Made by a program: the position numbers and the translations under genes. Under the pieces are notes generated by a model that saw nothing but the letters and a program-made list of their open reading frames with translations, was not told where the DNA came from and did no database searches. From NCBI GenBank assembly GCA_012719175.1, contig JAAYAX010000012.1:1-64000 (forward strand): a DNA stretch of 64,000 bases, given 5' to 3'. The DNA is from Methanomassiliicoccus sp. GTDB taxonomy: Archaea > Thermoplasmatota > Thermoplasmata > Methanomassiliicoccales > Methanomassiliicoccaceae. Shown piece after piece: positions 18,778 to 56,704 of this stretch; the first letter of the stretch is position 1, and every line of letters starts with the position of its first letter.

Positions 18778-21566
18778 CAGTCCTCACCTCCGCCGCCTCC
18801 GGCGTCATATTCCGTCTCCTCGACCTCCTCTTCCTCGATGGTCTCCATGAGGTCCTTCTCCATGGTGGCGTAGCCGGCCACCTTCTTCTCCTCCAGCCGG
18901 GCCAGGGCCTCGGCATCATCACCAAGGACCTCAGCGAGGATATCATCGATATCCACGGCATCTCCCTGCACGCTGCGGCAGGGGTCCACTCCATCTTCCC
19001 CGTACTGTAACTGGACGATCATGTCCGCGGTGTTCCTCACCGTACCGTCCTGCTTCAGCTTTAGGTCCTCGAGCGCGTTGATCAGTCGGCGCTGCATGTA
19101 ACCGGAACGGGATGTACGGACGGCGGTATCGACCAGACCCTCCCTTCCACCCATGGAGTGGAAGAAGAACTCGGTCGGGGTCAACCCGCTCTTGTAGGAG
19201 TTCTGCACAAAGCCCTTGGCCTGCGCCCCCAGGTCGCCTTTCTTGAAGTGCGGCAGGGTCCTGTTCCAGTACCCCCTAGATAGGCGTTCCCCACGGACAG
19301 CTTGCTGTCCTATGCAGCCCGCCATCTGTGAGAGGTTAAGCATGGACCCTCTGGCGCCCGAGCGGGCCATTATGACCGCGGAGTTCTCCATACCCAGATG
19401 CCGGCCGGCAATTTGACCGGCCTCATCTCTGGCGTTTCCCAGCGTTTTCATGACCTCGACCTCGAGGGTCTCCTCAAGGGACCGGCCCGGCCTTTGCTCT
19501 AAGGTCCCGTCACGGTATGCCTGGACATATTCCGATACCTTGCGTACCGAGTCCTTGAGCATATCGTTGATCTGGTGGGTCGCCTCCTCCGGAATGTCCT
19601 CATCATCGATGCCGGTGGTGAACCCGCGCACCATGATGGCACCGATGGCGAGCTTGGTAACGTTATCCAGGAACTCCCTGGCAGCGTCAGCGCCGTAATC
19701 GCGGGTTATCTTGTCGAGGATCTTGCCCTTGAAGGAACCGATGGCCTTCTCATCGATGGTGCCGGTGATCAGCTTCCCCTCACGTATCTTCACGTAGGCG
19801 TCAAGGTCACAGTCCTCTTTCTTGCATACCGCGCAGTTGCGGCAGATGGACGCCTTGAAGGTGCTGTGGAAGCCCTTGGGAAGCACCATGGAGAAGAGCT
19901 GATGGCCTGTCCAGTATTCCTTCCCGTCGACCACCAAGGGCTCGGGTAGGTGCTCGTGCTTCACCTTGGAGAGGATGCTCAGCGTCTCCTGCTTGTCGAA
20001 CTTGGGGTCCATATGGGTCAGGAGGAACGTCCCGGTGATGTGGTCGTGGATAGCACCGATGACGGGGCCGCCGAACCTCGGGGACAGGATATGCTCCTGC
20101 ACCCTCATCAGGATCATCGCCTCCGCCCTGGCCTCATCGCTTTGAAGGACGTGCAGGTTCATCTCATCGCCGTCGAAGTCGGCGTTGTAGGGCGGGCACA
20201 CGCACAGGTTGAACCGGAAGGTCTTCCACGGCATGACCCTGACGGTGTGGGCCATCATGGACATGCGGTGCAGGGACGGCTGCCTATTGAACAGCACGAC
20301 GTCCTTGTCCATGAGATGCCTCTCCACTATGTACCCGATCTCCAGGCCGTCGGAGATCATCTCGGCGTTCCTGTCGGTGACCTTCATCCTGCGCCCGTCG
20401 GAACGGATGACGTAGTTGACACCAGGGGCGTACCTTCCGTCGTCCAGAGGCGGGTTGGAGCCCCTCTTGACCATAGCCTTGAGGACGTCTATGTTGGCCT
20501 TGGTGACATGGACCGGGACGGTCAGTTCACGGGCAGCCTCGTACGGTACTCCCACTTCATTGATGGAGAGCGAGGGGTCGGGAGAGATGACGGTACGCGC
20601 CGAGAAATTGACACGTTTACCGGACAGGTTCGATCGGAACCTCCCCTCCTTACCCTTTAGCCTCTGGACCAGGGTCTTGAGGGGCCTACCGGAGCGGTGC
20701 CTAGCCGGGGGGATGCCCGACGTCTGATTGTCGAAATAGGTGGTTACGTGGTACTGCAGCAGCTCCCACAGGTCCTCTACGATCAGCTGAGGGGCGCCGG
20801 CATCACGGTTCTCACGCAGACGCTGGTTGATCCTCAGGACGTCCACCAGCTTGTGTGTGAGGTCGTCCTCGGAGCGGTCGCCGGACTCTAGTGTGATGGA
20901 GGGGCGGACCGTCACCGGCGGAACGGCCAGTGCGGTGAGCACCATCCACTCGGGACGGCATGAGTTGGGGTCTATGCCCAGTGGAGGCAGGTCCTCATCG
21001 GGGATACGCTCCAGGCGCTCCCTGACCTCCTTGGGGGTGAGCTTGTGGCCATCCTCACGGAACGTGGTCGGCTTGTCCAGGGTGATCTTGCCCTGCTCCT
21101 GGCCGCAGTGGGGGCAGGTGGTGTTCTTGGACGCGTCCTTGGCCGTTCCCTTGGCAAGGAGACGATAATCGATGGCATCTCCACCGAGATCATCCATCAT
21201 CTCCCATTCCTGGGCCTTCCGCTGCGCTTCCTCCTTGGTCATGAGGAGCTTTCCGCAGGTCTTGCAGGTGGACTGCAGCAGCTTCTTGATCTCCTTAACC
21301 AGGCCAACGTGGATCACAGGCATGGCAAGGTCGATGTGGCCAAAGTGGCCAGGGCACTCATCCACTTTGTTGCCGCAGGTCTTGCAGCGCAGACCGGGCT
21401 CGATGACGCCCAGGTGGGGGTCCATCAGACCCATGTCTATGGGGAAGCCATCGTCATCGTACGTGTCCGCGGTGATGACCTTGGTCGCGGACATCTTCCT
21501 GACCTCATCGGGTGACAACGACGAGAACTTGATCGAACCTATCCTCTTTGAAACGCCTCGCATCAT
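18777..21566 (-). CDS. rpoA1: DNA-directed RNA polymerase subunit A'
   Basis: The 929-residue large catalytic fragment carries the zinc-binding [19 protein letters not shown], a second zinc site ([10 protein letters not shown]) and the catalytic magnesium loop [12 protein letters not shown]. The frame extends 60 codons further upstream into rpoB, but that extension is low-complexity and Arg/His-rich. The start is placed at ATG 21566, where GGAGG stands just upstream and ATGA overlaps the rpoB stop by 4 bp. Split A'/A'' is the archaeal norm. Confidence 0.96.
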
Positions 21567-24500
21567 CTTAGGTCCTCCAGTTGAAGGCGCATGACGACGC
21601 CAAGTGACAGCAGCTCGTCGAGCAACAGCTTGAACGCATAGCTCGTCTGCACGAGGTGCACGTTGGTGTTGTTGCCGCATACTGGGCAGCGTATCGCTCC
21701 CCTCCGGTCCATCATGGCGATGTGACCGCAGTTGGAGTTGCCGCAAACATACAGGAACGTCCCATCGGACTCGTCCAGCAACCGGTCCTTGATGACCATG
21801 GCCGCCCCATGCCCGATCAGGCAGTCCCTCTCCATCTCACCGAAACGCAGACCGCCCTGCCTTGAGCGGCCTTCCGTCGGTTGTCTTGTCAATATCTGCA
21901 CCGGTCCGCGGGAACGCACGTGCATCTTTCCCGACACCATGTGGTGCAGCTTCTGGTAGTAGATGACGCCGGTGAATATCTCGGCCTCGATCTTCTTGCC
22001 GTTCTGACCGTCGTACATCACCTCCTTCCCCGTGGTTCTAAACCCGGCTCGGCCCAGGGATTCCCTGATGGCCTGCTCCTTCTCCCCTGAGAAGGACGTG
22101 CCGTCGATGGATCTGGCCTCCATGGCCCCGACCTTACCGCCGATCATCTCCAGGACGTGGGCGACGGTCATACGAGAGGGGATAGCATGGGGGTTGATGA
22201 CCAGGTCCGGTGTCACACCGTCGCAGGTGAACGGCATGTCCTCTTGCGGCACGATGAGGCCTATGACCCCCTTCTGCCCATGTCTAGAGGCGAATTTGTC
22301 ACCCAGCTCAGGGATGCGCTCGTCCCTCACCTTGACCTTGACCAAGCGGGAACCGTTCTCCGATTCTGTCAACATGACGGAGTCGACCCAGCCGCTCTCT
22401 CCCGGCCGTATGGTTATGGACGTCTCCCTCCTCTTCTGCGGAGTGAGGAAGTCGGTCTCCTCCTCCAGGAACCTGGGGGGTGAGGTCTTTCCGACCAGGA
22501 CATCGCCTCCGGAGACCAAGGTCTCGGGGGAGATCAGTCCGTCCTCTCCCAGGTTTGCATAAGAGAGGTCGGTACGTGCGCCGCGGACATCGGGGGAGGG
22601 GATCTCAAAGTGGTCCTCCTGCCCTCCAGGGTAGCGCCGCTCCTCGGCACGGTATGTCCTCATGAAGGTTGATCGTCCCAGGCCGCGCTCGATGGAAGCC
22701 CGGTTGAGGATGAGGGCATCCTCCATGTTGTAGCCATGATAGGATATGACGGCGACCACGAAGTTCTGCCCCGCCGGGCGATCGTTGAACGCCACGAAGT
22801 CCATGGGCTTGGTCTGCACCATGGGCTTCTGGGGGTAGTGCAGGATGTGGCCGCGAGTATCCGGCCTCTTCCTATAGTTGGTGCAGCTTAGCCCCAGCGA
22901 CTGCTTTGCCATTCCCGATCCCATGGTAACACGCGGGGAGGAGTCATGCTCCGGATAGGGGACGACTCCCGCCGCCACGCCCAGGATGACCATTGGATCT
23001 ACCTCCATATGGGTATGCTCAGGTGTGATCAGTAGAGGGACCTTGTTGTCCCCACCGCAGTGCTTGCACTTCAGGACGGCCTCGGTACTGTCCGTCCCCG
23101 GGTTCATCCAATCCACGTCAGTAGGCGACAGCGCACGGGAGCATGACGCGCAACGCTCGGGGGAATCGAAGGGCTCCACAGCCACCAGGGAGTCCTCTTC
23201 CTCTTCGGCGTCGATCCACTCCGTGACCCCTTCGCGCAGCAGGTCGGACCACTTTATCCGGCCCTCGCGGATGTCCTCGAGGTGCCTACGGGTGATGACG
23301 GTGCGCCCCTCCTGGATGACCAGTAGGGGCCTCCTCAGGCGGCCTTCATCGCAGTTGATGACGACCTCGCCCATCTCCTCGTCGTAGCGGATGTTTATCT
23401 CGCTGGACAGCAGCCCCTGCCTCCTGCCGGCCCGGATCTCGGACACCAACAGGCGGGGATTGTCCACATTTCCCACCAGGTCGCCGTTCACATATACCTT
23501 GGCCCCGGTGCTGATCTCCCCCGCCTTGACCTCCACAACGCCCCGGTCCCGGAGCAGCCACTGGACGTCCTCCTCGCGGAATCCTTCGGAAACGTCGATG
23601 ATGAGGGCGGCGTTCTTCACCAGACCGCAGTTCTGACCCTCAGGGGTCTCATTGGGGCACAGCCGGCCCCACTGGGTGGGGTGCAGGTCACGAGCCTCGA
23701 AGTGAGGCTGAGAGCGAGTTAGGGAGGAGGTGACCCTCCTCAGGTGGGACAGGGTGCTCATGTTGGAGGTGCGGTCCAAAAGCTGAGATACTCCAGCCCT
23801 ACCGCCGACCCAGTTACCGGTCGCCAGCGCGTGCAAGAGCCGGTGCGTGAGCAGGTCCGGACGGATGGCCGACGCGATTCGCAAATCCTTCTTCCTGGCA
23901 AAGCTCCTCTCCAGCTGATACTTCAAATCCTTCATCAGGTTGGTGAAGGCCACCCGGAAGAGGTCCTCCATGAGGTCCCCCGAAAGTTTGAGACGCTTAT
24001 TGGCATAGTGGTCCTTGTCGTCCTCCTTGCGCAGGCCGATGCTCAGTTCCAACACCGAGCGAGCGATCCTGCCCAGGAAGTGGGCCTTCTTGATGCGGTC
24101 CTCCTTGGTGTCGCCCAGGTGGGGCAGCAAGGAACGGTCGATGATGGACTCCACCTTCTTCTCCCTGTACTCCCGCGCCTGCCCGGTCGCGAACTTTCGC
24201 TCCAGGTAGTTCAAGGCATCCTCGGTGGTGAACACACCGTTGGGGGGGTAGAGCTTCTTGTCATGGCACTCCTCGATGTTGGCGTAAACTATGTTGGCCA
24301 TGTCCGAGACGCTCACGATGGCATCGTAGATCTCCTTGTCGTTCTCCATCCCCAGGGCCTTCATGAGGATGACCAGGGGGATCTGTCCGGATGCGGCAGG
24401 GACGGTGACCATCAGGATGCCGTCCTTCTTCTTCTCCACCAGGGTGAGGGCGCGGTAACCCTCCTTCTGCGAGAATACCTTCGCTACCTCCAGCTGGGTA

Positions 24501-25162
24501 CCGTAGCGCTCGTTGTACTCCACCATCACTCTGTTAGGAGCGAGGTCCTCAAGAGAAATGAGGACCCTCTCGGTCCCTCCGATGATGAAGTATCCCCCAG
24601 GGTCAGCGGGGTCCTCCCCGAACTCGATGAGCTTCTCCTTGTACTCGGCCTCGGTCAGCTCCCGCTCCTCCTCCATGCTCTCCTTGAAGAGATTGCAGCG
24701 CTTGGAACGGAGCATGATGGGGAGGTCACCTATGTGCACCTTCTCCGGTTCCTTCTCGATGCCATCCTCGATGATGGTGAACTCCAACTCTATAGGTGCC
24801 AGGTAGTTCAGGTTCCTTAGCCTGGCCTCCATGGGGGTCAGTTTGTGGGTGGCACCGTTGGCCTCCCTGACCACGGGGTTGAGGATCCTTATCGTCGGCC
24901 GGCTGTACTGAGGATCGATGTTGCCGGTCTTCTCGTCCCGTCGCCGTCCCACCCGGATCTCCACTTGGCGTCCGTCGGTGCGGTCCTGCTCCAGTTTGAT
25001 GATGCCTCGGGTGGTATCATCGGCCGACACCCTCAGGTTGTCGACGATCTTCTGCATGCGGCTGTTGGGATTGTCCATCGTGGAGAGGAAATCGTTGAAA
25101 CTGGCGATGTGGTGATTGACGATGGACCGGTCCTTGAAGTATAGCTCTATAAGATCACGCAA
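21563..25162 (-). CDS. rpoB: DNA-directed RNA polymerase subunit B (unsplit)
   Basis: The second-largest polymerase subunit, 1199 residues in one piece. Many methanogens split it into B'' and B'. Landmarks are [22 protein letters not shown] near the N-terminus, the wall/hybrid-binding region [29 protein letters not shown] and the C-terminal zinc clamp [27 protein letters not shown] further Cys cluster ([10 protein letters not shown]...CKHCGG) lies mid-protein. It is preceded by rpoH with 7 bp between them. The unsplit form is one of the reasons to suspect a Thermoplasmata lineage. Confidence 0.97.
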
Positions 25163-25169
25163 TTTGTCC

Positions 25170-25442
25170 TCACCCCTTGAGTTCCTTGCTAATCACCAGG
25201 CGGTACACTATGAACTCCTCGGCGGTGTCGCTTTTACGTCTTATCTGTATCACCCTTCCGGGACTTATGGGGCCTTCTATCCTCTCCAAGATCCTGATGC
25301 AGGCATCATCCTTCCGGATCTTGGGTAGCTGGTCCTTGGTAATCTTAAACTTGGCCAAGACCTTCTCGGCCTCCTGCTCGGTCAGCAGGGTATGCTCTGG
25401 CACGAGATCGTGCTCCAAAACGTGTAAATCAGATTCGACCAC
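25170..25442 (-). CDS. rpoH: DNA-directed RNA polymerase subunit H
   Basis: This 90-residue protein matches archaeal RpoH (RPB5 C-terminal domain): [34 protein letters not shown] and [22 protein letters not shown]. It starts at GTG 25442 with GAGGTGA upstream. It is about 12 residues longer at the N-terminus than many RpoH proteins. First gene of the polymerase operon rpoH-B-A1-A2-rpl30e-nusA. Confidence 0.95.
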
Positions 25443-25568: not shown

Positions 25569-25708
25569 CGGGCCCGCGGGGATTTTCGGAGCGCACGGGA
25601 AGGCCGCGCGCCTTTCGAACCCCGGACCACCTGGTTAAAAGCCAGATGCTCTTTCTAGGGACAACGGGATGTTATTACCGCCATCCTACCTAGCTGAGCT
25701 ACGGGCCC
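25569..25708 (-). tRNA. tRNA-Lys(UUU), apparently interrupted in the D-loop and in the T-loop
   Basis: Read on the minus strand the gene begins GGGCCCG-UA-GCUC and ends CCCCG-CGGGCCC-G. It holds a perfect 7-bp acceptor stem, 4-bp D stem (GCUC/GAGC), anticodon arm UCUGG-CUUUUAA-CCAGG (anticodon UUU, Lys) and T stem CGGGG/CCCCG. The span is 140 nt while the clover-leaf parts add up to 74. The excess is one insertion of about 35 nt in the D-loop after AGCUAGGUA and one of about 31 nt in the T-loop after UUCGAA. Both insertions can fold into hairpins (GGAUG/CAUCC; GCGCG/UGCGC). No CCA is encoded. Exact splice points cannot be fixed by eye. Confidence 0.8.
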
Positions 25709-25901
25709 ATGGCAAGCTAATAGGCATTGCAGAAGCCCATGTAAAGCCTCTAATTATTTAAAGGTTGGCTTGGGTCCTGGAAGGGGGCCATTGCTCATGG
25801 GCGGTTTTCGAAGGATGAGGCCGCGGCGGCGGCCGAACGAAGCGGGTCCTGTTCCGCCCGCCCCTGCCTATCTGGATGCGGCCCAACATAACAACTGGCC
25901 A

Positions 25902-56629: not shown

Positions 56630-56704
56630 GCGGGCGTAGTCTAGCGGTTAGGACTTAAGCTTCCCAAGCTTGAAGCCCGGGTTCGAATCCCGGCGCCCGC
56701 ACCA
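56630..56704 (+). tRNA. tRNA-Gly(CCC) with encoded CCA, integration site
   Basis: GCGGGCG/CGCCCGC acceptor, D arm, anticodon arm UAAGC-UUCCCAA-GCUUG (anticodon CCC), T arm CCGGG-UUCGAAU-CCCGG, discriminator A and CCA at 56702-56704. There is no intron. A TATA-like CATTTTAATC lies about 35 nt upstream. The stop codon of the integrase gene begins at the very next base. Confidence 0.95.

Follow-up and report, generated by a model that had tools for sequence, protein, structure and literature searches.

A tRNA-Lys(UUU) gene with predicted non-canonical introns in its D-loop and T-loop, probably inherited in Methanomassiliicoccus and other Thermoplasmata

The window analysed here, a stretch of 64,000 nucleotides from Methanomassiliicoccus sp. 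(contig JAAYAX010000012.1), carries on its minus strand, from position 25708 down to position 25569, a double-intron tRNA-Lys(UUU) gene that, judged from its sequence and those of its relatives, is real and very probably functional. An earlier reading of the sequence alone had claimed that a complete cloverleaf with the anticodon UUU is spread over 140 nt instead of 74, and this was found to be so, with the acceptor, D, anticodon and T stems all intact; the extra sequence, which it put at about 35 nt in the D-loop and about 31 nt in the T-loop, amounts to 35 nt and 31 nt. Its proposal of two non-canonical introns was likewise borne out by the junctions, by conservation and by covariation. We consider it close to certain that this is a functional, essential tRNA-Lys(UUU) with two archaeal bulge-helix-bulge (BHB)-type introns, at positions 20/21 and 59/60 of standard tRNA numbering, which are spliced as proposed below and were inherited. 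The gene structure, pairing, conservation, covariation, collinearity and synteny, as well as the architecture of the endonuclease, are established by the observations that follow.

The three exons measure 21, 39 and 14 nt and together make up 74 nt. Exon 1 (25688..25708, minus strand; GGGCCCGTAGCTCAGCTAGGT) holds the acceptor 5' strand, the D-stem 5' strand and the D-loop as far as U20, and is gap-free against intronless orthologues. Exon 2 (25614..25652, minus strand) extends from A21 through the D-stem 3' strand, the anticodon arm (UUU), the variable loop and the T-stem 5' strand to UUCGAA, and exon 3 (25569..25582, minus strand) holds U60, the 3' strands of the T-stem and acceptor, and the discriminator G73. 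On the minus strand, the 5' part of the gene reads GGGCCCG TA GCTC AGCTAGGT, then the 35-nt D-loop intron AGGATGGCGGTAATAACATCCCGTTGTCCCTAGAA (25653..25687, minus strand), then AGAGC A TCTGG CTTTTAA CCAGG; the 3' part reads TGGTC CGGGG TTCGAA, then the 31-nt T-loop intron AGGCGCGCGGCCTTCCCGTGCGCTCCGAAAA (25583..25613, minus strand), then T CCCCG CGGGCCC G. A TATA box (TTTAAATA, 25755..25762, minus strand) precedes the 5' end of the tRNA by 54 nt, and the motif used finds a TATA-like box at -54 to -58 in 26/29 loci, the remaining three showing close variants. Downstream of the tRNA lies rpoB (21563..25162, minus strand), which serves as the synteny anchor, and between the two is a 90-aa ORF (25170..25442, minus strand) that we putatively name rpoH (Rpb5) from its sequence and position.

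In the window, ARAGORN and Rfam at its gathering threshold both found a tRNA-Gly(CCC) only (an ordinary intronless gene at 56630-56704 on the plus strand) and missed tRNA-Lys(UUU). ARAGORN still missed the interrupted gene when introns of up to 1000 nt were allowed, and Rfam at a permissive threshold returned only chance matches from the window. Once both introns were taken out of the sequence, ARAGORN reported tRNA-Lys(ttt), and in an alignment the spliced sequence is collinear and gap-free with the intronless Lys(UUU) genes of other lineages, i.e., removal of the introns leaves a standard tRNA, as expected of archaeal BHB introns. A tRNA that common finders report as missing is present here. 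Elsewhere in the same genome, apparent introns were seen in tRNA-Arg(UCU) (G000:C5:163946-164061, L038 ~501-620; a 37/38 intron and a T-loop 59/60 intron with a UUCG:CGAA junction), in the D-loop of tRNA-Leu(CAA) (G000:C13:196271-196329, L037) and in the D-loop of tRNA-Thr(CGU) (G000:C11:100690-100789, L020), which ARAGORN mislabels as Pro(ggg). A candidate tRNA-Trp(CCA) at L038 ~830-980 is interrupted by about 100 nt of intron, possibly with a C/D box RNA inside, as known from other archaea.

The 140-nt stretch folds much better than shuffled sequences (z = -4.3, 0/200). Under constraint, the cloverleaf-plus-BHB fold has a free energy of -68.9 kcal/mol, within 2 kcal/mol of the unconstrained minimum of -70.8; we would like to note that this minimum slightly favours a fold without the D-stem, which counts against the proposed structure. 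A search for bulge-helix-bulge motifs, i.e., a central helix of about 4 bp flanked by 3-nt bulges with the splice sites inside them, found BHB-type junctions at both introns, relaxed on the 3' side of the D-loop. In the T-loop junction, the T-stem is the outer helix, followed by a 4-bp central helix UUCG:CGAA with the bulges AA^A and AA^U (the caret marks the proposed cut), and the intron itself holds a 9-bp inner helix; at the inner junction, a single additional C is unpaired. If both strands are cut behind the second base of the bulge, the loop UUCGAAU results. In the D-loop junction, the outer helix is the D-stem GCUC:GAGC and the central helix is CUAG:CUAG, again of 4 bp. Its 5' bulge, GU^A, is strict, but its 3' side places AA^A opposite AG (A14, G15), so that this splice site is a BHL-like 2x3 internal loop rather than a strict 3-nt bulge. 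The sequence-only reading had paired CTAGG with CCTAG within this loop. This 5-bp reading of the junction was rejected: it would place the A/T variation of column 22 in the exon and lengthen the D-loop. The 4-bp CUAG:CUAG helix followed by a 3-nt bulge is preferred because the cuts GU^A and AA^A then restore the standard D-loop AGCUAGGUA and all bulge variation falls on intronic bases.

An alignment of 37 distinct double-intron relatives of the gene shows how differently exons and introns are constrained. Averaged over columns, the minor-base fraction is 0.016 for exons versus 0.284 for introns. Among bulge columns, the proposed cut sites predict variable intronic bases and invariant exonic ones, as seen: 4/6 of the intronic columns vary and 0/6 of the exonic ones. 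Standard pairs fill 97.0% of the 1612 pair cells, against 33-49% in controls with slid partners, and 17 pairs have changed on both sides, against 3-7 in those controls, most of them in the inner helices of the introns, including that of the T-loop intron. When the class at large is considered, all base pairs of the D-loop central helix are kept in 62/65 loci, and its exon and intron halves change together (CTAG:CTAG, GTAG:CTAC, CCAG:CTGG, ATAG:CTAT). The two inserts are far beyond chance because both recur at identical sites in dozens of related genomes.

A second Lys(UUU) gene was looked for in the whole genome (2.42 Mb in 16 contigs, 99.6% complete, so that a second copy in a gap is just possible). 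The Rfam search gave 36 tRNAs above the cut-off, the sole lysine gene among them being Lys(CUU). No other Lys-UUU gene was found in the genome using the interrupted gene and the spliced sequence as queries, and a covariance model of the double-intron gene returned neither a second Lys(UUU) nor any further gene with D- and T-loop introns. Relatives with single-contig genomes carry the interrupted form as well; in one of them, G027, the lysine genes are the interrupted UUU form and Lys(CUU) only. A C34 anticodon is unable to read AAA, and rpoB alone contains four AAA codons; tRNA-Lys(UUU) is therefore required. The tRNA complement of this genome was compiled from Rfam hits, and neither Rfam nor ARAGORN detected the isoacceptors Ala(UGC), Cys, Gln(UUG), Leu(GAG), Leu(UAG), Pro(CGG) and Ser(GCU), which may hide behind non-canonical introns or fall in contig gaps.

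In named database records, the interrupted pattern occurs mostly in Methanomassiliicoccus, Methanomassiliicoccales and Thermoplasmata archaea. Lys(UUU) genes with both D- and T-loop introns occur in families f1, f3-f6, f8, f10, f11, f13, f14, f21, f24, f29 and f32 (the f13 state was read by eye from the sequence, where the pattern script gave no match), and genes with three introns (D-loop, 37/38 and T-loop) in f16, f19, f23, f25, f27, f28 and f31; three-intron loci were observed at L115, L116, L118-L122, L131, L135 and L141-L143. The remaining combinations are D-loop plus 37/38 (f26 and, outside the class, f36), D-loop only (f17, one f3 genome, G054, and, outside the class, f40), T-loop only (f9 and, outside the class, f34, f57 and f64, with one f34 genome, G397, lacking introns) and no intron at all (f2, f18, f22, f30 and several outgroups). 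A few bacteria-titled records (L147, L152, L160, L170, L182, L209, L213) also match the intron-specific Lys pattern, and may be ordinary bacterial tRNA-Lys genes or misbinned contigs. The locus itself is stable: in 32/34 of the Thermoplasmata genomes sampled, Lys(UUU) is found upstream of rpoB at a distance of about 350-550 bp (two of these 32, with a GGGCTCG start outside the script's pattern, were placed by coordinates), and in the other two, G186 and G088, it is elsewhere. The same neighbourhood was also found in some genomes outside the class. In two members of the phylum (G231:C16 and G242:C58), rpoB is in two open frames, possibly split B''/B' genes.

The history of the introns was read from a quick rpoB tree, midpoint-drawn and with some forks open. 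The fewest changes on it are 4 for the D-loop intron, 3 for the 37/38 intron and 7 for the T-loop intron, and if the D-loop intron had one origin, three losses suffice. By these counts, the D-loop intron is probably older than class Thermoplasmata. The T-loop intron either goes back at least to the origin of the class or was acquired on more than one occasion, and it is the canonical 37/38 intron that is patchily distributed. Because the intronless f2 is nested among intron-bearing Methanomassiliicoccales, f2 lost both introns. A rival account of this history accepts splicing and takes the introns for recent, independent insertions by transposition, as proposed for Thermoproteales. The seven T-loop changes and the three at 37/38 give it some room, and the T-loop intron of tRNA-Arg(UCU) in the same genome, with a junction identical to that of the lysine gene, would fit it as well. 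We regard it as improbable all the same, given that locus, positions and junction bases are identical across the class, that the D-loop intron needs only four changes, or one origin and three losses, and that the loss in f2 is nested. On our reading, the introns are inherited; the D-loop intron, at the least, probably arose before the class did, and several lineages, f2 among them, have lost it. Synteny anchors the locus, so that gains and losses of introns can be traced over deep time at a single site where clean intermediates occur.

Very improbable is the idea that the inserts are retained, giving a working tRNA whose D- and T-arms are extended. Both inserts do prolong hairpins, so that a large-armed RNA could form; however, it would break the conserved elbow between D-loop and T-loop, a splicing endonuclease requires such bulges and 4-bp central helices, which are conserved here, and the spliced sequence can be aligned gap-free with the intronless orthologues found at this locus. 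Least credible is a tRNA pseudogene disrupted by insertions, the decayed copy that the sequence-only reading had named as its alternative, since, although standard tRNA finders miss the gene, its exons are near-invariant, its intron helices covary and compensate, dozens of genomes share the insert sites, a further Lys(UUU) was not found, and the single-contig relative has Lys(UUU) in the interrupted form alone. A split or permuted tRNA was also considered and rejected, the three exons being collinear within 140 nt.

For the spliced, double-intron tRNA-Lys(UUU), we infer transcription, cutting at the named bonds, ligation and charging. The gene would be transcribed from its own TATA promoter, and the precursor would fold with the D-stem and T-stem as the outer helices of the two junction motifs. 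A two-unit homodimeric (alpha'2) endonuclease would then cut the D-loop junction at GU^A and AA^A and the T-loop junction at AA^A and AA^U, and an archaeal tRNA ligase would join the three exons, yielding a standard tRNA of 74 nt, the sole one predicted to read AAA.

A host-encoded tRNA splicing endonuclease is present: the whole-genome search found a single gene, a 373-aa ORF with two PF01974 units, which aligns with the Archaeoglobus fulgidus alpha'2 enzyme across both units. Its dimeric state (alpha'2) is deduced from this two-unit architecture. In the alignment, it has no insertion at the site of the engineered crenarchaea-specific loop of 3p1y. Endonuclease matches were obtained in 17/18 genomes examined (none in G125), and in 16 of these 17, three-intron lineages included, the two units lie in one open frame; the f22 enzyme has one recognisable unit. 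All sixteen aligned enzymes (the G137 sequence lies outside the alignment) have the catalytic Y, H and K motifs, and none carries a loop insertion. A crenarchaeal-type broad-specificity system, (alpha beta)2 or epsilon2 with a CSL/ASL loop, was rejected for this genome, whose enzyme has two PF01974 units in one loopless ORF. Right after the (Y/F)G motif, at the point of loop insertion, a basic residue is common, mostly K and in a few R (GFFGKK in this genome). This residue is, as a hypothesis only, a candidate substitute for the CSL/ASL loop; it is also found in intronless members.

Homodimeric splicing endonucleases are stated in one paper to be able to cut a BHL-like motif (PMC8707768). On the other hand, alpha2/alpha'2 enzymes have been called strict (PMC7714728; in Haloferax the strict motif is demanded) and narrow, with Archaeoglobus among the narrow ones (PMC6379350). 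The 2x3 internal loop of the D-loop junction, together with the strictness of some alpha'2 enzymes (Haloferax, Archaeoglobus), counts against the proposed splicing.

The kind of intron and both of its positions were previously known, archaeal non-canonical BHB introns having been described at the same 20/21 and 59/60 (PMC4090602). Such introns are known as rich in Crenarchaeota and Nanoarchaeota (PMC4090602), whereas here they run through Thermoplasmata at one orthologous locus. Some introns of this class may already be included automatically among the hundreds of non-canonical introns counted in tRNAscan-SE 2.0 surveys (PMC8450103). The sequence-only reading had called the arrangement unusual for a euryarchaeon. 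This agrees with reviews, in which euryarchaea with alpha4 or alpha2 endonucleases have single introns at the canonical 37/38 only (PMC4090602), but the arrangement is common within this class. That reading did not include the conservation across the clade, the synteny with rpoB, the relatives with three introns or the type of endonuclease. Literature searches for tRNA introns with Methanomassiliicoccales or Methanomassiliicoccus found nothing, and a deep, syntenic, clade-wide multi-intron locus with an alpha'2-type enzyme appears to be unreported in the literature searched.

The multi-intron genes of Thermoproteales, with up to three introns, resemble those described here in having two or three introns per gene and in mixing canonical and non-canonical ones. 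They differ in that the Thermoproteales endonuclease is of the (alpha beta)2 type and bears the crenarchaea-specific loop, and in that transposition has spread many of their introns, whereas here the enzyme is a loopless alpha'2 type and the introns were inherited in situ at a single locus. Methanopyrus kandleri and Methanothermobacter thermautotrophicus, the only euryarchaea named as having multi-intron tRNA genes (PMC4033280), belong to other lineages, and the M. kandleri enzyme is (alpha beta)2 (PMC6379350), unlike the alpha'2 enzyme here. The known alpha'2 endonucleases of Archaeoglobus fulgidus (1r0v/2gjw), Thermoplasma (2ohc) and Ferroplasma share the two-unit architecture and catalytic motifs; in contrast to them, the enzyme here is predicted to have among its natural substrates a D-loop intron whose 3' junction is BHL-like. 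We lean, if only slightly, towards the view that Lys(UUU) of Thermoplasmata ancestrally carried two or three introns beside rpoH-rpoB, which were lost piecemeal, and that a loopless alpha'2 enzyme still processes the non-canonical junctions. Within one class, many lineages combine an essential tRNA that has two or three introns with an alpha'2 enzyme lacking specificity loops, which makes the clade an exception to the proposed coupling of introns and endonuclease; if true, this view would contradict the proposed rule of co-evolution between multi-intron tRNAs and endonucleases that bear the loops.
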